Positions 6,239 to 29,158 of a stretch of DNA of 34,127 nt are shown piece by piece. The position numbers and the translations under genes were made by a program. Each line of letters opens with the position of its first letter. Within the stretch, counting starts at the first letter, position 1. This DNA is from Akkermansia muciniphila (lineage in GTDB: Bacteria > Verrucomicrobiota > Verrucomicrobiia > Limisphaerales > BJHT01), in the NCBI GenBank assembly GCA_945861535.1, contig CAMAUZ010000082.1, positions 1 through 34,127 of the forward strand, given 5' to 3'. The notes under the pieces are model-generated. The model was not told the origin of the DNA. It did not search any database and saw only the letters and a program-made list of their open reading frames with translations.

Positions 6239-9200
6239 TCATTTCTTTCTGCTCCGCGACGCTGGTTTGTCCTCGAGCAGGCCATCGATATCGTTGCCGA
6301 GGACACCGGAGAGTTCGTCGGCGGAATAGACCTCCAGTTCCGCCAAGCGGACGAGGCCGTCGGTTTTGGCCGAGTCGTTGCGACCGGCCCAGAAATAGTG
6401 GATCTCGTCGATCTTCTGGGCGGGGCAGGCGAAGACATGGACGAGTTGCTGGTTGTCAACGACCACGCCCGCCGGCAGCCATTGCCGGGCGACCGCGTCA
6501 TGCACGTAAACCGCAAACCGCGCGGTGGTGCGTTCCTTCACGCCGTGCTTGTCGGCGATCGGGCCGGTGTTGTCTTCGTAAATCGCGATCGAGGCGACCT
6601 CCTGCGGGGTTTTGAAACGGACCCGGCATTCGGCGCGGTCGATGCCCGTGCCGCGGGCCAGCGTGGTCCAGGCCGTTTCCTGATTGGCGATCACGCCGTC
6701 CGCCAGCCGCAGCGATGTCAACGGACAGGGATACGGCTCGTGCCGGAGGGTGGAATTGCCGCCCGTCCACGGCATCACGAGGCTGGTTAGATTGCCGACG
6801 GGCTTGGCGTTCCCGGCTGTGCCCGTGCCGGCCGCCGAATCAAGCCGCTGGGCCGTGGCTTTGGGCGTGTCGCGTTCGAGCGTCGTCTTCGCGGAGCCGT
6901 CGTACACGAGATTGCGTCCGCCGAAGTTCATGGCCGCGACGACCAACTCGGCGGCGAGCAAACCGGAGGCGCTCGGGGTTGCGGAATCGTAGGTCAGGCC
7001 CGGTTGCTTCGTGTCGCTGGTCGGGCGGGGCTCCACGGCGCGCAGGGTGAAGGTCACGGTACCGCTTTCATCGGCGCGGAAGGCGGCACGACGGCGTGTA
7101 AGATGACTGCTCAAGGGAAGGCGCGCGGTGTAGGGCAGATTGCCGGTCTTTTGTTTGCCGACGACGGCGATCTCAAGTCGCGTGTGCGGAGTCAACTTGG
7201 CCGGATCGGCGGCGCCGGCGAGCAGTTCCACGAGGTAGGTGCGACCCGCCGCGACGGGCAGCGTGAAGGAGGCCTCGGGATTCAGTTTGCTGACCGTGAC
7301 CGGACCGGCCGGATCGCCGGGCAGCGGGGCGGCGGGAGCCGCGTGTCGCTGGAGCTGCTCGCCGGAGATGAGACTGGGTTCAAATTTCACCCCCCTGCCC
7401 TTGAGTGTCGCGAGATACGACGGCTCGGGCGGCAGGGGCGGCGCGGAGGTCGAGGAATCGAGCGGCACGCCGCCCGCCGAATCGAGCTGTTGCACAAATT
7501 GCGCGGGAGTCGTCACGTTGTAGGGGTTGAAGTCCACGGAGCGAACCCGTTTGCCGTCGGTCGCGTTCAGCCAGTGCAACTGCCCGTCGCGCGAGCCGAC
7601 GAACACGGTCTGCCCGTCGGGCGACAACCGGGCGATGCCGCCACCCGGCGTGTCGCTTTGCCAGAGACGGCGGCCATTCGCGGCGAAGCGTTCGGTGACG
7701 CCGCGCGCGCTGACGCAGAGGATCGACTGCCCGTCCGGGGTCACCAGCACATCGGTGACGCGGCCGGCGACCGGGAGCGGTTGGTCGGCGCCGCCGTTCA
7801 GGGGACGCAGATACACGCGCGCGGTCGGACCCTGCCGGTCGAACACCTGATTCTCGACAATCAGCAGCGATTCGCTGCCCGACACCGGCAGCACCCAGTC
7901 TGTGCCGGCGACGGACGGCATGCGGGTCAATGTTTCGCCCCGCGCGGCGTCGAGCAACTGCGTCTCGCCGGCGTCGTCAACCACGAGGAACTGTCCGGCG
8001 GTGGCCACGACCTTGCCCTGATTGAGCAGCCAGCCGGCGCGTTCCCAGAGCCGCTTGCCGGTCGTCGTGTCGAAGCCGCACACGGACGCATTCATCACCG
8101 AGCCGCGTCCGTAAACGTCGTGCTTGATGCCGAACCCGGCGACGAGCAGCACGCGGCCGTCGGTCGTCACGGCGCGCGGGAACAGGCTGCGGGGATAGAG
8201 CAGATCTTCGGTGCTCGTCCGGGCGGTAGCGTCGTCGAAAAGCCAGCGCAGTCGCCCCTGCGCGTCGAGCGCGTGCAGTTTGCCGGCGCCGCCGAGATAG
8301 GTGAGCTGGCGGGTCGTGTCCTTCAGCACGGTCGAGCCGCCAATGGGGAGCGAAAACGGTCGGAGCAATCCGGACGGCGGCGCGGGAATGCGGCTCTGCC
8401 AGCCGTGGTCGAAACTGAAGCGGTACTGGGCGTCGCCGACGCCGACCTTGACCGTTCGTCCGTCGATCGCTTCCAACGAGCCGTTGAAGGGCGCCCAGAA
8501 GTTTTGGCGGCCGAGGTAGCGCGAGCGATGCTCTTGAATCTCACCGCCGGGGCTGACTGCGAACAGCGAGTCGCCCATCGCGGCGGTCGTCACGAAAAGT
8601 CGCGAGCCGTCGGGCGCAAAGGCGACGTTGAGAATCGCCGCGCCGAACTTGCCCACGAGGAGATGATCGAGCTGCGCTGACGGACCGCCGCGAGTCACGA
8701 CCGGCGGCGCGGTCTCCCGTTTCGGCTCCGGCTTCGGCGGCGCAGCCGGTTGCAGACCCGCCAGCCGGGCCACGGCCGCAGTCGCACCGTGGGCGTCGTG
8801 ACAGCCGACGTACAAGCCGTCGAAGCCGCCCTGAAACGGCGACCAGAGATAATGGATGAAGTAGCCGCCGGGAGCCGGCTGTGCTTCCGATGGGACGCGC
8901 CGCAGATAGGGGGAAAGTTCGGCCAACGCCCGGTGCGAGGCGGGCTTGCCGAACAACACGATGTCCGCGTCGTGGCGCAGCCGCGGCCCGTATTCGTCGT
9001 AGCCGCATTTCGGATCGTCGAAGACGAGGTGCGTGGTCCTCCCAGTCTTCAGATCGGTTTTGCCGACCGCCCCCAACGCCACGCGGCTGACGAACGCCTT
9101 TCCGTCGCGCACGCGTGCGAGCAATTCCACCTCCTCGGGCAACGGCTTCCACCGCAGCAGCAACGGCTGGACTTCGTCGGGCTGAAAGACGGCGACGCGC

Positions 9201-13292: not shown

Positions 13293-13331
13293 TTGGCAGG
13301 AATCCGTTTTCTGGCCGCTCGGCGGTTCGGC
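13293..13331 (+). repeat. Dispersed 39-bp repeat, copy A
   Basis: This is the most divergent of six copies. It keeps CAGGAA, TTTTCTGG, CGCTC and GCGGTTCGG of the consensus at the same spacing. It starts 3 bp after the 44-bp direct repeat in the non-coding gap upstream of the giant gene. Confidence 0.65.
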
Positions 13332-13456: not shown

Positions 13457-13500
13457 GTCGCGTGAGCCGCGCGGGACCGGGTTTGGAATTCCGCGTTTAC
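13457..13500 (+). repeat. Direct repeat, copy 2 (44 bp)
   Basis: Second copy of the 13247-13290 repeat. Unlike copy 1, it continues into an inverted copy of its own 3' half, forming a hairpin-capable element. Confidence 0.75.
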
Positions 13501-13554
13501 GCGGCCCGCTGGCCCAGGCCGCTCGAACCGCGTAAACGCGGAACTCCCAACCGG
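13478..13554 (+). repeat. REP-like palindrome with 27-bp arms
   Basis: The left arm (13478-13504) and right arm (13528-13554) are inverted copies. The inner 14 bases, CCGCGTTTACGCGG, are perfectly paired and the outer part is nearly so. The loop of about 23 bp is GC-rich. The structure resembles the repetitive extragenic palindromes that RAYT transposases mobilise, and RAYT remnants occur at 26906-27063 and 28668-29158. No gene covers it. Confidence 0.75.
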
Positions 13555-13704
13555 GCTTTTCAATCAGGCTCTCAGCGACACCACCCTGGCCCCCGACCTC
13601 AAACACGCGCTGGCGGAAGTCCCGAGCAGCGGCATCCACATGCACCTGGTCAGCGGACCGGACGACGCGCGCGGACTGTCCGAGCGGCGAGCGGCTCACG
13701 CAGT

Positions 13705-13889: not shown

Positions 13890-16800
13890 CTATTCGCGCA
13901 GCCACGCCAGCAAGTCCGCCATTGCCGGTGGTGGCAGCGCGGTTTCGAGGCCCTCGGGCATGAGGCTCAGCGGCGACGGGCGCAAGGTCCTCACGTTCGG
14001 GCGTAGCAGCTTGTCCTTCACGCCGTTGGCTTGCGCGAGGGTGAAGCCTGTGGCGGTTTCGTCGGTGACGAGGCCGGTCAGGGCGCGGTCGTCCCGCGTG
14101 TCCACGTTGTAGGCGATGAAGCGCGGCTCGATGGCGGCGTTCGGGTCGAGGATGGCGGTGAGGAAATCGCCGACGGGTTTGGTGCGATACGTCGCGAGGT
14201 CCGGGCCAAGCGGGTGACCGACGCCGCGATAGGCGTGGCACGCGGCGCAGCTCGTGGTGAAGAGCGCAGCTCCCTTCGTCGCGTCACCCTTGAGCGAGGC
14301 CACACTGGCGTAGCTCGCAAGGACGGCGGCGCGCGAGGCGGTTTGTTCCGGGAAGAGCTTTGCCACGCGCGCTTTTGTCGCATCGCTGCCGTGCCAGCGG
14401 AGGCGGTTGCGCGTGGCCGGCGGAATCTCCGCGAGACCCACCACGCCGCGCTCGACGGCGTTGAGGAGCGACTGTGTCCACGCCTCCTGGCTTGCGAGCG
14501 TGTCCACCACGGATGGCCTCGATGCGATGGGCAAAGCGGCCCATTGCGCGAGGATGAGTTCGTCGGAGTTCGGCCAGCGGCGGGTGCGGAGTGTGGTAAG
14601 CGCGAGTTGCTGCAACTCGGCGCTCGCGGGCGGCACGAGCAGTCCGGCGACGACCGGCGCGTCGGCGTCAGCGCGGTTGAAGCCGCGTCCGAGCAATGGC
14701 ACGGACGCGCGGCGCATGGCGTCGGAGGAACTCGGGCTGGCGGCGAAGGTGCGGGCATCGGCGTAGAGCTGTTGCAGGCGCGTCGTTGCGGCACGGACCT
14801 CAGCGTTGGGCGAGTCGGCGGATTTCCGCAGCGCGATACCGCGCGCATCCAAGGCGTCCTGCAACGCGGTCATCGCGTGGAGTTGCCACTGCTGCGTGCG
14901 CTCGCCCTCCACCGGTGCCAGCGCGGTGAGCAGCGCCGCGAACTCAGCCTCGCCCGCCGAGGCGGACGCGGTGGCGATGAGCTGGCCGAGGAACTCGTTG
15001 CGGCCCGGTGCAGTCGCGGAGGTGGTGACGGCGACCGTGAGCAACTCACCGGTGCGGCCCACGGCTCCGCTCAGGATGGCGGCGCGTTGGTAAGGGTCGG
15101 CCGTGCCGTCGCGGGCGAGTTGGGCAAGGGCGGCGCTCGCGTGTGGGTCGTTCCAAGTTCCGAGGGTGAAGGCGAGTTGGTAGCGGACGGTGGGTGTGGA
15201 GTCGGCGGTGAGTTTCAATGTGGCTTCGGCGAGGCGCGGGTCGCTCGCGAGGAGCGGTTCGGCGAGGCGGAGGGCGAACTGGCGAACTGACGGATGCGAG
15301 TCGGTGAGCGCGGTTAGCAGCGCGTCCCGACCGGCTGACGCGGCGAGGGCTTGCAGGCGGACGACGGGGTTCGTCGAGGTGGTGAACAGTTTTGCCAGCG
15401 GCGCGGCGGCTTGCGGGTCGTTGCGGTGGAGCAGTTCGCGATGGGCAAGGTCGCGCGCGATGCCGTTCTCGGTGTTCAGCGTGGCGACGACTTGCGGGGT
15501 CGTCAGCTTGGTCAGGTCGTTGAAGGGCCGGAGCTTCGCGCCTTGCGGATAGATGCGGTAGATGCGGCCTTTGTCGGAGCCGGCGCGGACGTCGAGGGAC
15601 TTGAGGCGCTCTGGCGGAATCCAGCGCGGGTGCTCGATGACGAAGCGATACATGTCCACGACCCACAGCGCGCCGTCGGGACCGGTGAGCGCTTGCACGG
15701 GGCGGAACCAGTTGTCGGTGCTCGCGAGGAACTCGGACGCGGCTTCATCAGCGGGTTTCGCCGCGGTGAAGGTGACGCCGCTGGGCGTGAGCGCGAGGCG
15801 ACGGACCAAGTTGTGCACCGGCTCGCAGATGAAGAGGTTCTGGCTGAAGCCCGCACCAAGCAACGTGTCGCGATACACGCCGAGGCCGCACGCGCTCGTG
15901 ACATTGTTCAGCGACTGCGGACTGTTGAAGTGCTCCAGTGGCGTGCTGATGGGATGCAGCCGCCCGAGAGTGGCGGCGAGGTTCACGCTGGGCGGCGGCG
16001 CGGGGACGTGCGGGTTGCGCGCGAGGTAGCGGTCGGGCAGCGGGTAGTGGTAGGCGAAGGCGCTGTTGTGGCAGCCGAACCAGTTGCCGAAGTCGTCGCG
16101 CGCGCGGCCCTGTTGCGTGAGGCCGGACGTGGCCTCGAACTCGCCGGTGTCCGGGAGGAAGCGGAAGTCGCGGCCGCGGATGTTGACCGCATTGGCAGCC
16201 GCCGACGTGAGGAGGCGGACCGGAGTATTGTCGCCTTCCGAAGTCCGCCTCCTTACATCGGCGGCTACGATGTCGCCGCCGAGGAGGCCGTTTGCGCCGT
16301 GGACCCAGTTGTCGAGGCCGAGGGAGAGGCTGTTCACGCGGGCCTGGTAGTTGTTCGTCTCGAAACCGGTGTAGAGCTTGCGCACCACGTCGGCCTTGCC
16401 GTCGCCGTTGGTGTCCTCGGCGTAAAGGATGTCCGGCGCGGCGCAGATGAGCGCGCCCTTGCGCCAGGCCATCACGCCGGTCGGAAACGGCAGGCCATCG
16501 AGGAAGAGCGTGGAGCGGTCGAAGGGGCCGTCGGGGCGCGAGCGGGTGAGGAATTTCACGCGGCCACCGGGCTTCCAGTTGCCGTCTGATCCCATCGGGT
16601 AGTCTGCCATCTCGACGACCCACAGCTTGCCGTCGGTGCCAAAATCAATCGCGACCGGGCTGGTGACGAGTGGCTCGGCGGCGACGAGTTCGATGGTGAG
16701 GCCGGCTTTGGTGCGGAGGGTGGCGAGGGAGTCGGCGGGGGATTTCGGCGGCGGGTTGCTTGTGCCGGTGGCTGGTTGTCGCGGTTCTGGCGTGCTGCCT

Positions 16801-18239
16801 GCCACAGACGGCGATTGCAAATCGCCGGCACGGGGGGCGGTTGCAGCCGGCGCATTCCGGTTCTTCGACACGAAGTTACGCGGGAGCAACTCGTGGACAG
16901 TGCTGACGATTTTGTCTTCCAAGCCGGGCGCAAACTTCGTGGGTCGGTCGTAATAGACCATCGCGCTGCCCCCTTCGTAGCCGCCCTCCTGCAAGATGCG
17001 TTCGCTCGGGATGTAGCAAGGGTCGTCGTTCGCGTAGCCGTGGACCCAGAGGCGCGTGCCGTCGAATTCGCGCTTCAGGCGCAGGCCGTAGTCCACGACG
17101 ATTTCGCCGGGCAGGAATACCAGTGCGAGGTTGGTGCCAAAGTTCCAGGTCTGGATGAGATACGGCAACTCCGTGGGCAGCTTTTCGCCGCGGTCGAGAC
17201 GGGCGAGGTTCTTCTTCGCGTGAAAGGAAATCTGCTGCGCCTTATTCGTGGCGAGCGCTTCCCACTCGGCGCGCGTGGGGAGTTTGTCGAAGTCGAGCGC
17301 GATGCGCTTGGTGCGTGCGACCGGCGGTGCGGGAAGCTCCTTCCACATGCCGTGGAAGAGGCGCTTCACCTCATCGGCGATGGCGCGGCCTTGGGCGTCT
17401 GCAAGGTCAGGCGTGCCGCGCTGGTTCGGGTTTTGGTCAGCGCCGCAGCCAATGGCGACGAGGCCAATCGCGCCGGGGTGATCGGCCTCAATCGCGAGTT
17501 GCGCGGAGCCGGCCCAGTCGCCGTGAATCGTGTTCAAACCGAGCGTCACGCAGTGGCACGCGTAGCTGACGAAGACGGCGCGCACGCTGCCTTCGGGCGA
17601 CGTGACGCGCAGCACGGGCAGGTCGTGGTCCACGGGCGCGATAGGTTTGCCACGGCGGTTCATGGCGAAGCCGACCTTGCCCTGCGTCCATTCAACGCGG
17701 CCGGGCCGGCGGTCGGCGAGCGCGGCGCGGATGACTTGCTCCAGCTTCACGGTCAACTCGCGCGTGTAGCGGTCCACGCGCGCCTGCTGGTCGGGCGGGA
17801 GGTCAGCCATGAAGATGTTCGGCGCGACGCCGGCAATCATCGGCGCGGAGTGCGTGTGCGAGGAGCAGATGGCGAGGCGGTCGGGCGTAAGGCGCGTGTC
17901 GCCCGCGAGGCGGCGGAGCAACTCGGTGCGGATGGCGTCGGACACGCCGAGGTTGTCCACGGTGACGAGCACGGCAGGGCCTTCCGCGTCGGTGCCGATG
18001 ACGAGGGCCTTAGCGTGGATGCGCTGGGCGACGCCATCGGACTCAATCTTGCGCGCGGCAAAACCGGTGAGGCGGGTCGGGTAGTCCGGCGTGATGTCCA
18101 CGCGCGCGACGCCGACGCTGGGAAGAGGCGGAGAGAGGGCGCGCCTCACCGCGCAGGCAGCGAGCAAGCACAGCATGGCGAGGGCGAACGGGAGCAAGGC
18201 CTTCAGGCCGCCGAAAGGCGCGCCCGACACCGCACGCAT
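13890..18239 (-). CDS. Neutral ceramidase-PVC dehydrogenase-HEAT-heme fusion protein, exported
   Basis: This is a 1449-residue protein. ATG 18239 is chosen because GGAG lies 5 nt upstream and it opens a lipoprotein-like leader (LLPFALAMLCLLAAC, possible lipid-modified Cys29); ATGs at 18308 and 18353 would precede this without a better site. Residues of about 40-447 are a neutral/alkaline ceramidase N-terminal domain (VARVDITPDYPTRLTG, SSHTHSAP with metal-binding His, GDWAGSAQL). After a Pro/Ala-rich linker, residues of about 510-900 form the PVC-type membrane-bound dehydrogenase propeller (ELVAAEPLVTSPVAIDFG, VNIRGRDFRF, GRIYRIYP). HEAT-like helices follow to about 1310, then a heme site CAACH starting at residue 1331 with a cytochrome-like tail. 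Both halves occur separately in PVC genomes. The fusion suggests lipid or sugar-amide hydrolysis coupled to oxidation, which is inference. Two palindromic elements lie inside the coding sequence. Confidence 0.88.
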   Translation of the reverse strand: MRAVSGAPFGGLKALLPFALAMLCLLAACAVRRALSPPLPSVGVARVDITPDYPTRLTGFAARKIESDGVAQRIHAKALVIGTDAEGPAVLVTVDNLGVSDAIRTELLRRLAGDTRLTPDRLAICSSHTHSAPMIAGVAPNIFMADLPPDQQARVDRYTRELTVKLEQVIRAALADRRPGRVEWTQGKVGFAMNRRGKPIAPVDHDLPVLRVTSPEGSVRAVFVSYACHCVTLGLNTIHGDWAGSAQLAIEADHPGAIGLVAIGCGADQNPNQRGTPDLADAQGRAIADEVKRLFHGMWKELPAPPVARTKRIALDFDKLPTRAEWEALATNKAQQISFHAKKNLARLDRGEKLPTELPYLIQTWNFGTNLALVFLPGEIVVDYGLRLKREFDGTRLWVHGYANDDPCYIPSERILQEGGYEGGSAMVYYDRPTKFAPGLEDKIVSTVHELLPRNFVSKNRNAPAATAPRAGDLQSPSVAGSTPEPRQPATGTSNPPPKSPADSLATLRTKAGLTIELVAAEPLVTSPVAIDFGTDGKLWVVEMADYPMGSDGNWKPGGRVKFLTRSRPDGPFDRSTLFLDGLPFPTGVMAWRKGALICAAPDILYAEDTNGDGKADVVRKLYTGFETNNYQARVNSLSLGLDNWVHGANGLLGGDIVAADVRRRTSEGDNTPVRLLTSAAANAVNIRGRDFRFLPDTGEFEATSGLTQQGRARDDFGNWFGCHNSAFAYHYPLPDRYLARNPHVPAPPPSVNLAATLGRLHPISTPLEHFNSPQSLNNVTSACGLGVYRDTLLGAGFSQNLFICEPVHNLVRRLALTPSGVTFTAAKPADEAASEFLASTDNWFRPVQALTGPDGALWVVDMYRFVIEHPRWIPPERLKSLDVRAGSDKGRIYRIYPQGAKLRPFNDLTKLTTPQVVATLNTENGIARDLAHRELLHRNDPQAAAPLAKLFTTSTNPVVRLQALAASAGRDALLTALTDSHPSVRQFALRLAEPLLASDPRLAEATLKLTADSTPTVRYQLAFTLGTWNDPHASAALAQLARDGTADPYQRAAILSGAVGRTGELLTVAVTTSATAPGRNEFLGQLIATASASAGEAEFAALLTALAPVEGERTQQWQLHAMTALQDALDARGIALRKSADSPNAEVRAATTRLQQLYADARTFAASPSSSDAMRRASVPLLGRGFNRADADAPVVAGLLVPPASAELQQLALTTLRTRRWPNSDELILAQWAALPIASRPSVVDTLASQEAWTQSLLNAVERGVVGLAEIPPATRNRLRWHGSDATKARVAKLFPEQTASRAAVLASYASVASLKGDATKGAALFTTSCAACHAYRGVGHPLGPDLATYRTKPVGDFLTAILDPNAAIEPRFIAYNVDTRDDRALTGLVTDETATGFTLAQANGVKDKLLRPNVRTLRPSPLSLMPEGLETALPPPAMADLLAWLRE
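16198..16265 (+). repeat. In-frame palindromic element inside the ceramidase-dehydrogenase gene
   Basis: Arms 16198-16220 and 16243-16265 are inverted copies matching at 21 of 23 positions around a 22-bp loop. On the coding strand it reads through without a stop and adds about 23 residues (AADVRRRTSEG...VRLLTSAA) just before the conserved VNIRGRDFRF motif, a place where related proteins have a short loop. This looks like a mobile palindrome tolerated as protein sequence. Confidence 0.8.
16810..16826 (+). repeat. Short palindrome in the interdomain linker
   Basis: GGCGATT-GCA-AATCGCC is a perfect 7-bp inverted repeat. It encodes part of the linker between the ceramidase and dehydrogenase domains (residues of about 472-477, AGDLQSP). 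The linker may have been built partly from a second palindrome family. Confidence 0.6.
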
Positions 18240-22101: not shown

Positions 22102-25100
22102 ATGAATTCCATCAAGCGACTAGAAAGCAAATTCCTATCCGTGTTGAAACGTCCCAGCCACCTAGCCACCTTGTTGGTTTGCTGCACAAGTCTGACCGCG
22201 GCAGACGTGGTGAAATTGCCGCCGCCTGCTCCCGCACCCGTTGAATTCACGCGCGACATCGCGCCGATTTTCGCGGTGAAATGCCTGAAGTGCCACGGCG
22301 CGACCAAACAAAAGGGCGATTTGCGCCTGGATTTGAAAGCCTTCGCTTTGCGCGGCGGCGAATCCGGCAAAGTCATCGTGCCCGGCAAAAGCAGCGACAG
22401 CAAACTGATGCATCTGGTGGCCGGACTCGAAGCCGATAACATCATGCCGCCAACCGGCGAGAGGCTCAGCGCCGCGCAAATTGGCCTGCTGCGCCGCTGG
22501 ATTGACGACGGCGCTGTGTGGCCCGACGCAGCGAAGCCCGCTGAAACACACTGGTCGTTGCAGCCAATTCGTGAACCGCGGGTGCCCACAACGGTGCTCA
22601 AAGGCGGTGCCAACGCGATTGATGCCTTCGTTTTGGCGCGCCTCGAAAAAGCCGGACTTCGCCCTGCGCCGCGCGCCGACCGGGCCACTTTAATTCGCCG
22701 CCTGAGCTTCGATTTAACCGGCCTGCCGCCCTCGCCCGCCGAAGTCGCCGACTTCGTGAACAGCAAAGCGCCGCGCGCCTACGAAGAACTTGTGGAACGC
22801 TTGCTGGCCTCGCCGCACTACGGCGAACGCTGGGGACGGCACTGGCTGGACGTGGCGCGCTACACCGAGAGTCAGGGCTTTGAATACGACCGCCTGCGCA
22901 ACAACGCCTGGCACTATCGCGACTACGTCATCAAGAGCTTCAACGACGACAAGCCGTATGACCGTTTCATGCGCGAGCAAATCGCGGGCGACGTGATGGA
23001 ACCGGTGACGAGCGATGGCATCATCGCCCCGAGCCTGCTCGTCTGCGGCCCGTGGGATCAGGCCGGAAATGCACAGGCAAATGCGACGCAAAAGATGATT
23101 ACCCGCGAGGATGAGCTGGAGGATCTCATCGGCGTCGTTGGGCAGTCTTTCCTCGGGCTCACGATCAACTGCGCGCGCTGTCACGCGCACAAGTTCGACC
23201 CGATTCCGCACGAAGAATACTATCGCGTCAAAGCGGTCTTTGAAGGCGTGCGACACGGCGAACGCAGCATCGCCAGCGCCGCGGAAACCAAGGCGCTCAA
23301 TGACCAACGCGCCGTGCTGGAAAAGGAAATCGCGGCGGCGCAGGACGTCGTCTCGCGGCTCGAAGCGGAAGCACGGAAACTCGCAGTGGCCAAGCTGGCA
23401 GCCGACCCGCGCCCCGTCGGTCCAGCACCGTTTGCGCGGTGGGCATTCGAAGGCGCGCTGCCCGCTGGCGAGCTCAAAGGCGGAGCGAAAGTCGAGGGCG
23501 GCCGGCTTTTGCTGAAAAAGGAAAGCGGCTCGTATTTTCAAAGCGCACCGCTCACCCGTGACATCCGCGAAAAGACACTCGAAGCATGGGTGGCGCTCGA
23601 CGATTTGAAGCAAGGCGGCGGCGCTGCAATTTCCATCGAGTCGCAGCCGAGTCGCGATTTCGACGCCATCGTGTTTGGCGAGCGTCAGCCGAGAAAATGG
23701 GTCCCCGGTAGCGGAGGTTTCCAGCGCACGCGCGACCTCGAAGCTCCTGAGGAAACCGCCGCGCCGGGCACGCTTGTCCACGTCGCCATCGTCTATCGCG
23801 CGGACAACAGCATTGCGTTGTTCCGCGACGGACAGCCGTATGGAAAACCCTACACGCCCGCGCAGCCGCTCCGCACCTACAAGGCCGGCGAGTCGCGCGT
23901 GCTGCTCGGCCTGCGGCACCACGGCGCGGGCAACGGCTTTCTCGGCGGCGGAGTCGAGCGCGCCTCGCTCTACGACCGCGCGTTGAGCGCCGAGGAAATC
24001 GACGCGTCCTTCCGCTCGCAAGGCCGCTCCATCCCGCTCGCCGATACACTCGCAAATCTCAACGACGCACAACGCGCCGAACGCGACGCCGCGCTCGCCA
24101 AGATTGCCGCGACACGGACACAGCTCGACGCAAAGAAGCCGGACCGCCAAGTAAGCTACGTCGGCACGCGCGTGCAGCCGGCTCCGACACATCGGCTGAA
24201 GCGTGGCGATGTGAAAGCGCCGGATGAAATCGTCACTCCCGGTGCGCTCGCCGCGGTGGCGGATTTAAGCCCCGACTTCGGCCTCGCCGCAGACGCGCCC
24301 GAGGCACAGCGCCGCTTGAAGTTCGCCGACTGGGTGGGCGATGCGCGCAATCCGCTTCCCGCGCGCGTGATGGCCAACCGCGTCTGGCACTATCACTTTG
24401 GGCAGGGACTGGTGGCCACGCCCAATGATTTTGGGGGCAGCGGCGCGCGGCCTTCGCATCCCGAACTGCTCGACTATCTGGCCGCGAAGTTCATCGCGGG
24501 CGGCTGGAGCATCAAGAATCTGCATCGGCTTATCGTCAGCTCGGCGACCTATCAGCAAAGCTCGGCATTCGAGGCCAAGGCCGCCGCGTTGGATGCCGAC
24601 AACGCGCTGCTCTGGCGCTTTGCGCCGCGCCGCCTCGAAGCCGAAGCCGTTCGCGACGCGATGCTCGCCGTCAGCGGGCAGCTCAATCCCGCGATGGGCG
24701 GACCAAGTTTCCGCCCGTTCACCATCACGGATTTCAACGCCGCATTTTACCACCCCAAAGACAGCGCCGAGCCGGAATTCAACCGCCGCACCGTCTATCG
24801 TGCGAACGTGAACTCCGGCAAAGACCCTTTGCTGGATGCCTTCGATTGCCCCGACCCGTCGGTGAAAACGCCGCGCCGTGGAGTCACCACCACGCCATTG
24901 CAAGCGCTGGAACTCATGAACAACTCGTTTGCGCTGCGCCAAGCAAAGTTCTTGGCCGAGCGCGCGATGAAAGACGCCAACAACGACCTGCCGGATGCCG
25001 TTCAAATCGCCTATCGCCACGCGTTGGGCCGCGACGCCATGCCCGCCGAAGCCAAGCGCGCTGCTGCCGCCGCGCAAGCACGCGGTTTGGCCAGCGTCTG

Positions 25101-26566: not shown

Positions 26567-26905
26567 CCATTTGAATCCGCAGCCGGCAACGCTGTGAAAG
26601 GCAACTCGGCGACAACCGCATCGCCACGCGCGACGCGCCAACAAGGGGCGGGTTTTAACGCCAGCAAATCACCGGGACCGGAGTCTCCTCGTCACGAATA
26701 AGCCGATGACTTCCTTTCGGAAGCCGACTGATAGGAAATTGCTTTCTGGGCGCTTCGCGGTTCAGGGCCACTTTTGTATTCTGAGCTTCGCGCGGGGCTT
26801 ACCTGCGTGAGATGACAAAGGCCGCCGTCGAAGACCAGCACCCAGCCGGTGGATGTCAGATCATGGTGTCGGGGTATCGAGCCCAGGGCCGGCAGGGCGG
26901 CGTCT
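26567..26905. other. Intergenic stretch downstream of DUF1501 gene
   Basis: No supported gene. It contains a small hairpin (CTTCC-TTTC-GGAAG, near 26710-26723) directly before a copy of the 39-bp dispersed repeat. A long minus-strand open frame across it shows no recognisable family. Confidence 0.5.
26728..26766 (+). repeat. Dispersed 39-bp repeat, copy D
   Basis: This copy is closest to the consensus: CTGATAGGAAATTGCTTTCT followed by GGGCGCTTCGCGGTTCAGG. It lies about 140 bp before a RAYT remnant. Confidence 0.8.
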
Positions 26906-27063
26906 CTGGAAAAGCTGGCGAAGGAGGAGATCGAGAAGGTGAAGATAGCCGTTCGGCCGCACCGGAAACGCTGGTGCCGGTGGCGTGAATAGCGGCGCGG
27001 CTGCGGATGGGGAGTGTGGCCGATGTAAACGCGCTCCGGTATTACTGGCGGAAAGCAAAGTAA
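26906..27063 (+). pseudogene. RAYT (REP-associated tyrosine transposase) C-terminal remnant 1
   Basis: In one frame it reads LEKLAKEEIEKVKIAVR, then in another VPVA-stop-IAARLRMGSVADVNALRY followed by YWRKAK and a stop. This is the end of the verrucomicrobial Y1-type RAYT proteins, which normally read ...AxxLRxET...WIAxRLxMGS.... The TGG of the WIA motif is now TGA, and a small deletion near 26960-26970 shifts the frame. The catalytic HUH and Tyr parts are absent. Confidence 0.7.
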
Positions 27064-28667: not shown

Positions 28668-29158
28668 ATTGGCCTGCATTACCTGAAGGCCCCGAGCGAA
28701 CCTCAGGCGTGGCTACGGGTGGACCGGGCGCTGGGTGAGGCTGGCATTCCCCAAGACTGTGTGGCCGGGCGGCGGGAGTTGGAACAGTGGCTGGAGGCGA
28801 GCCGCGGCGCGAGGGAGGGGACGCAACACCAGTCAATCCGGCGAGCTGGTCCCTCGGGGGCAAGGCGTTGAAGCACGAATTGCTTGGATAGATGAGTGAA
28901 GTGGTGGGGCGGGAGCACTACGGTGAGGAAAGGTCAGAGAGCCAGGACGAAAACGTGGAGCGTGTGGTAGCAGAGGAATAGCAGCGGTGGCGTCCGCGGG
29001 CTGAGACTCAGGAAAAGCTGGCAAAGGGGGAGGTCGAAAAGGTGAAGATAGCCGTTCGGCTGAGGCAGGAGACGCACTGGGGTGAGGCGGCGCTGCAGTT
29101 CGCGCTGAAGTTTGGTGATCGGTTTACCTCCCCGCCTGTGGCGAGTGAGAAACGGTAG
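28668..29158 (+). pseudogene. RAYT (REP-associated tyrosine transposase) remnant 2
   Basis: In pieces the plus strand gives LHYLKAPSEPQAWLRVDRAL, GEAGIPQDCVAGRRELEQWL and EASRG, then, after frame changes near 28865 and 28905, MSEVVGREHYGEERSESQDE, NVERVVAEE, a stop, and QEKLAKGEVEKVKIAVRLRQ-ET. This is the order of the second half of verrucomicrobial RAYTs (W-L-R-V-D-R-x-L-G, G-I-P-x-D, A-G-R-R, E-H-Y-G, V-A-E-E, A-x-x-L-R-x-E-T). At least two frameshifts and one nonsense codon are present. It shares a long near-identical block with remnant 1. Confidence 0.75.

Follow-up and report, generated by a model that had tools for sequence, protein, structure and literature searches.

A probable in-frame insertion of a GTAG-type REP doublet in a propeller loop of a verrucomicrobial DUF7133 protein

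Introduction

Rickettsia palindromic elements (RPEs) are palindromic repeats that lie in frame within unrelated protein genes, where they create new peptide segments. Here we describe a palindromic element that is open in frame inside a protein gene within a 34,127-nucleotide stretch of verrucomicrobial DNA (contig CAMAUZ010000082.1, order Limisphaerales; hereafter the window) and that has the anatomy of a doublet of repetitive extragenic palindromes (REPs) carrying GTAG tags.

Intragenic GTAG repeats were described by Di Nocera, De Gregorio and Rocco (2013; PMC3733652), with the highest number in Opitutus terrae, a member of the Verrucomicrobia. Dimers or groups of these repeats encode 20-30 residues, DnaE2 genes are among the hosts, and neutrality within flexible linkers or loops was considered. 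Inverted REP doublets that form one long hairpin together with their spacer were named REPINs by Bertels and Rainey (2011; PMC3116915), who take single REPs for remnants and predict movement in trans by a dimer of the REP-associated tyrosine transposase (RAYT), in analogy with the single-strand transposition of IS608. The E. coli TnpA-REP requires both the GTAG tag and a mismatch bulge in the stem (PMC8266576).

The window family resembles the GTAG-REPs of PMC3733652 in its tag, short hairpin, head-to-head dimers and mostly intergenic distribution with some copies wholly within open reading frames (ORFs), the comparison with the 24 families of that work being one of descriptions and not of consensus sequences. 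Spacers measure 20-100 bp in most dimers there and 22 nt in the window REPIN. The E. coli REP and the window family both place GTAG beside a hairpin whose stem has a two-base mismatch bulge, but the bulge is AA/GC in E. coli and GA/GA here, and a dedicated transposase is known for E. coli only. The REPINs of PMC3116915 were described from extragenic space, with clusters beside RAYT genes, whereas some copies of the window family lie in genes and no flanking RAYT was found at the loci inspected. In the available portion of PMC3733652 we found no mention of O. terrae repeats with a GA/GA bulge and a GTRA loop, or of DUF7133 among the hosts, and no closer work on such repeats in Verrucomicrobia or Planctomycetes appeared among the matches listed in literature searches.

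Like RPEs, the window family occurs as in-frame insertions in protein genes. Given that PMC3733652 equates RPE-4 and RPE-6 with CGTC repeats while the tag here is GTAG, a Rickettsia-type element was set aside as the family on the basis of the tag. The Rickettsia parallel drawn in a preliminary description of the window holds as an analogy, the effect being an in-frame palindrome, but not as a family assignment, because anatomy and tag are those of a GTAG-REP dimer. The accompanying statement that such elements are not widely described for bacteria of the Planctomycetes-Verrucomicrobia-Chlamydiae group is weakened by the 2013 report, since in-gene GTAG-REP dimers were already known, in the same phylum included. 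New here are two REP families with their hairpin design; for one protein, the proof of insertion, the predicted disorder of the loop and the presence of other inserts, in part palindromic, in that loop of homologues; and, for a second genome, a large proportion of elements inside genes.

Results

The near-perfect palindrome noted at 16198-16265 was confirmed: 21 of the 23 bases agree between its arms (16198-16220 and 16243-16265), 100 shuffles of the window gave no sequence fitting the arm with up to 3 mismatches, and folding of the element strand gave z = −7.8 as DNA and −9.8 as RNA, a level equalled by none of 200 shuffles. Each of the two inverted REP arms comprises 26 nt when its tag is included, and the whole element spans 24 full codons (Table 1). 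As had been proposed, the reading frame stays open through it within a 1487-aa ORF (18353-13890), and the REPIN peptide is predicted from the sequence to be made. The codon-based gene caller scored log-odds of +39.5 and +31.6 on the two sides of the element and −7.4 inside it. The element interrupts the DUF7133 domain just ahead of an NIRGRDFRF stretch.

Alignment of homologues showed that this segment is an insertion, in agreement with the preliminary description. The peptide is missing in 23 of 23 homologues from relatives and in all 100 other distinct homologues, none of which shares six consecutive residues with it, so that homologues free of the palindrome do not carry the same peptide. 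The closest orthologue (L165, from the NC_groundwater_1844 metagenome-assembled genome, MAG) is 88% identical over the domain, matches on both flanks and has an unrelated AACTCTC-type simple repeat at the REPIN site; its genome holds 22 arm matches elsewhere despite this REPIN-free site. Relative to most homologues the net gain is 19 residues (57 nt): the element does add a peptide, but not the roughly 23 residues first estimated. Because 24 codons brought a gain of only 19 residues, some loop residues appear to have been lost, suggesting either that the event was not a plain addition or that the loop was trimmed. An 11-kb stretch with three REPINs was also compared with the congener G001; of two REPINs examined, one is common to both and one is missing in a diverged stretch, giving no clean empty site. 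We regard in-frame insertion of a GTAG-REPIN as very probable.

The host ORF also contains HEAT repeats. Its dN/dS relative to L165 is 0.195 upstream of the element (635 codons) and 0.181 downstream (764 codons), indicating that the gene is under purifying selection on both sides. A sequence search for solved relatives found none, and the nearest solved folds are propellers of pyrroloquinoline quinone sugar dehydrogenases (TM-score about 0.5, 12-14% identity). In an AlphaFold2 model of the domain built from 44 aligned sequences, a confidently predicted propeller (predicted TM-score 0.90), the sole stretch with a predicted local distance difference test score (pLDDT) below 50 comprises domain residues 162-179, the element itself being residues 156-179. 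The model thus predicts disorder for the loop formed by the REPIN peptide, and surface exposure, a question raised in the preliminary description, would follow from this disorder.

The same loop carries at least 7 extra residues in 12 of the 100 other homologues. Only one of these inserts, that of L191, is strongly palindromic overall (z −9.3), its palindrome being near-perfect. Short hairpins, one of 8 bp with a GTGG tag in L168 and one of 9 bp in L196, occur within inserts that fold weakly as a whole (z −1.7 in both), and the other nine inserts showed no palindrome (z between −1.5 and 1.7). The GTGG hairpin is repeated in its own genome, with six distinct copies, itself included, in 258 kb; the L191 palindrome, of which only its own two arms were found in its genome at up to 1 mismatch, is not called a repeat. 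Another loop of the domain in L168 holds an in-frame REPIN of the window's own family, identified via its arms (2 and 0 mismatches) and folding at shuffle level (z 0.2) because the left arm has diverged. In a Planctomycetota homologue (L192:2501-3724), two in-frame CCCTCTCCCCC/GGGGGAGAGGG stretches lie in another loop of the same domain and are able to form one long hairpin, the insert being a strong palindrome (z −8.7); inserts of L037 and L190 in this other loop gave z −3.0 and 1.2, respectively. The inserts at the REPIN site suggest that the DUF7133 loop is length-tolerant and that palindromes of other kinds have been accepted in a few homologues.

The window's own genome (G000) is a 7.94-Mb draft of 169 contigs in which the arm, with up to 2 mismatches allowed, matched 310 times and the reversed pattern not once; the patterns for this count and for that of the order fix one closing-pair base, so that the G-C variant is undercounted. 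A sample of 1.22 Mb (the window and 60 stretches, some of them picked for listed arms) yielded 100 arms at up to 3 mismatches. They make up 69 elements, namely 31 head-to-head pairs and 38 singles, a few of the singles at 3 mismatches possibly being due to chance. The pairs are 62-77 bp long without their tags, and spacers of equal length have a mean pairwise identity of 0.24-0.42, while left arms reach 0.92. None of the 31 dimers shows a target duplication of 3-9 bp.

Each arm is itself a hairpin, reading GTAG, CCGCC, GA, n, GTRA, n', GA, GGCGG, with a 5-bp stem and a GA/GA bulge. In 118 CCGCC-type arms, collected with a pattern that includes the tag but permits 4 substitutions, the tag bases are conserved in 113 (G), 109 (T), 106 (A) and 115 (G) arms. 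The n-n' closing pair is C-G in 80, G-C in 13, A-T in 3 and T-A in 2, making it Watson-Crick in 98 of 118 arms against 67 expected, a value attained in none of 5000 shuffles. The bare architecture (GTRG-5 nt-GA-n-GTnA-n'-GA-5 nt) matched 120 times in the 1.22 Mb and 0 times in one Markov control; at least 4 stem pairs form in 111 of these matches, with a Watson-Crick closing pair in 104 of the 111. One element common to G000 and G001 has its closing pair swapped between the two versions of the right arm. The GTAG tag, the short self-complementary hairpin of each unit, the high dispersed copy number and the mostly intergenic location place the family in the GTAG REP superfamily, and the head-to-head elements, in which two inverted REPs and a spacer share one hairpin as in the window copy, are REPINs by anatomy.

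Of 320 genomes in the order, 77 contain the family, G000 among them, and the reversed pattern had no match. When 387 genomes were drawn from the phylum, matches occurred only in G000 and, once each with one mismatch, in two others. Judged by these counts, the distribution is patchy and largely confined to the order. The bare-architecture search also brought out a second REP family (GTAGGAGTCGAGGTRACGAGACTC) with the stem GAGTC/GACTC, of which the sample contains 46 arms when up to 2 mismatches are allowed; its 14 close head-to-head dimers have near-constant lengths of 92 bp (3) and 174-179 bp (11).

Location relative to genes was judged with the codon-based caller and not with a standard annotation. 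By this count, 57 of the 69 sampled elements fall between genes; of the others, 9 are contained in ORFs and 3 run across an ORF end. With 78% of the sample called coding, 12 or fewer elements in or touching genes would be expected under random spread with a binomial probability of 6e-27. The nine in-ORF elements are distributed over seven genes, which encode the host protein, an MFS transporter, an FtsX protein, CstA, a PSCyt2/PSD1 protein, a DNA polymerase III alpha relative and a WD40 protein; the three in-ORF singles at L103 form a single cluster within one gene. The element sits after or between the best-listed domain matches in five of these genes and inside a domain match in the other two, the host and the MFS protein. 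The CstA insertion is common to G001 and missing in 23 other relatives aligned. The REP cluster in the polymerase gene (L103:8795-9177, G000 C20) codes for 128 residues between HHH and OB matches, takes a different form in G001 and is missing in 5 others aligned; this polymerase is probably DnaE2, given that no match was found beyond the OB fold.

A second genome of the order (G705, MAG AV5, the source of L168) was sampled as 20 stretches chosen for arms, together with L168, its listed arm positions including those listed for G051 of the order. Here 12 of 43 elements were called in ORFs, 2 overlapped ORFs and 29 were intergenic, the in-ORF set including the L168 element, whose location within a gene was no new result. 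Of the 12, about 10 are convincing, while two of the three singles look like chance (L338, and L356 at 6110, which sits within a full-length HisD match). Among the host proteins are ArgJ, a U32 peptidase, an aminotransferase and a DAO/GcvT protein that contains two REPINs. Peptides encoded by the arms include VAADVRRR, SRRxEEA, PPPHVGGY, RRRLR and LLTSAAT, and the reading frame that contains the TAG of the tag is closed.

To look for a mover, Y1_Tnp genes were inspected with flanks of up to 1.5 kb, covering 9 genes of G000 and, for 12 relatives rich in REPs, 30 of the 101 matches. No RAYT flanked by the window's REP was found at these 39 loci of 13 genomes, although a related dimer lies about 1.4 kb from the gene at L135 and a lone site with 4 mismatches was seen at L146. 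A cognate RAYT flanked by the repeat is known for many, but not all, GTAG REP families. In G000, a Y1 transposase gene (L064:752-1936) is flanked by a different GTAG hairpin, GTAGCTCGACATTCCAATGTCGAG, which has 2 matches in the 1.22-Mb sample with both strands counted. Pairs of a Y1 gene and a GTAG hairpin thus occur in this genome, but not for the window's family among the loci inspected.

Other repeats were also noted. Six copies of a dispersed repeat of about 35 nt (TGATAGGAAACTGCTTTCTGG...CGGTTC) lie in the window at 13294, 13708, 18402, 26729, 27901 and 28067 (+ strand), five of which are 66-89% identical to the reference copy, with an inverted relative at 22114. An inverted repeat at 13477-13555, at lower coordinates than the host ORF, has 28-nt arms that are 89% complementary with 23 nt between them. 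A 63-nt direct repeat, 87% identical, occupies 26895-26957 and 28998-29060, 2.1 kb apart. Two dispersed repeats of about 185 and 200 bp (L076:9703-9890 and ~6406-6629) have many matches in G001.

Table 1. Coordinates of the element, its host gene and the second REP family (window positions unless a locus number is given)
Feature	Position	Strand	Remarks
Whole REPIN, two GTAG-REP arms with tags outside (head-to-head dimer) and a 22-nt spacer	16195..16268, 74 bp	(−)	minus strand encodes VAADVRRRTSEGDNTPVRLLTSAA
Left REP arm, tag GCAG (altered GTAG)	16195..16220	(+)	hairpin CCGCC-GA-C-GTGA-G-GA-GGCGG
Spacer between REP arms, 22 nt	16221..16242	no strand	
Right REP arm, tag GTAG (minus-strand reading)	16243..16268	(−)	hairpin CCGCC-GA-T-GTAA-G-GA-GGCGG, closing pair T-G
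Host ORF, 1487 aa	13890..18353	(−)	codon-based gene caller places start at 18239
DUF7133 (PF23500) / TIGR02604 domain, predicted beta-propeller, split by REPIN	15543..16742	(−)	
Ceramidase-like domain (PF04734), N-terminal in host ORF	17478..18116	(−)	
CxxCH haem-binding domain (TIGR02603), C-terminal in host ORF	13896..14288	(−)	in frame, downstream of insertion
Second REP family loci	L065:3068, L070:1086, L101:7433, L104:2249, L113:12745, L123:4525		

Discussion

The best explanation of these observations, and as a whole a highly probable one, is that a REPIN made of two inverted GTAG-type REPs would have entered an existing gene at a length-tolerant loop of the beta-propeller, oriented and phased such that the frame remains open, and would have been kept since the extra peptide would form a disordered loop doing little harm. 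That the peptide is near-neutral rather than useful is likely. Several observations weigh against this explanation. Dimer length in the family is mostly 1 and not 0 modulo 3 (21 of 31), the net gain in the host protein is shorter than the 74-bp element, and the closing pair departs from Watson-Crick pairing in the window's right arm (T-G) as well as in many arms of the L165 genome (G-G); the missing RAYT at the Y1_Tnp loci belongs with these points.

Repeated uptake of inserts by the loop, including the strong palindrome of L191 and the short hairpins of L168 and L196 among the 12 of 100 homologues with at least 7 extra residues, could be taken to mean that the REPIN-derived peptide was co-opted for a selected function, for example as a binding or spacing segment. 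We consider this improbable, because the window peptide is predicted to be disordered, a simple repeat occupies the same site in L165 and in-gene copies occur in unrelated proteins. Inverted repeats at both ends and a high copy number would also suit a miniature inverted-repeat transposable element (MITE), with a conserved interior and a target duplication and with a DDE transposase as its mover. By contrast, the dimers examined show neither a target duplication nor conserved spacers, single arms account for 38 of the 69 elements, and every arm has a hairpin of its own with a covarying closing pair. A MITE, rejected for its want of target duplication and conserved interior, is accordingly very improbable.

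Since the genome is a draft in 169 contigs, a repeat misjoined into the gene during assembly would give a similar picture, but the gene runs on in frame and matches domains and the orthologue on either side of the element, the same family is found inside genes of the independent draft G705, and the CstA copy is common to two species, leaving an artefact extremely unlikely. The open frame would likewise be expected of ordinary coding sequence that is palindromic by coincidence. This reading, the least probable of all, is rejected in view of the repeat family and the homologues: the peptide is in 0 of the 100 other homologues, the sequence is a dispersed repeat that is mostly intergenic in the sample, and the codon score falls inside the element.

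As to how the inserted REPIN moved, a RAYT would mobilize it in trans through folded single-stranded DNA. The GA/GA bulge of the arms agrees with the tag-and-mismatch pattern needed by TnpA-REP of E. coli. By analogy with described REPINs such a mover is reasonably plausible, and it is inferred only, because no Y1_Tnp locus inspected carries the repeat at its side.

We tentatively suggest, with rather less confidence than for the insertion itself, that REPINs may provide a steady supply of new peptide segments in this order. About a tenth to a quarter of the copies would be open in genes (9 of 69 and 12 of 43), and certain loops, such as that of the DUF7133 propeller, may have taken unrelated palindromes independently in Verrucomicrobia and Planctomycetes. 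The repeats themselves may represent a distinct structural class, defined by GTAG, a 5-bp stem, a GA/GA bulge, a closing pair and a GTRA loop, of which a single genome holds at least two families. Such genomes would offer many natural cases of a mobile palindrome entering a protein, in enzymes with good homologues, so that neutrality versus usefulness of the new peptide becomes testable. Moreover, a loop that accepts different inserts in several lineages may serve as a marker of a protein site tolerant to new sequence.
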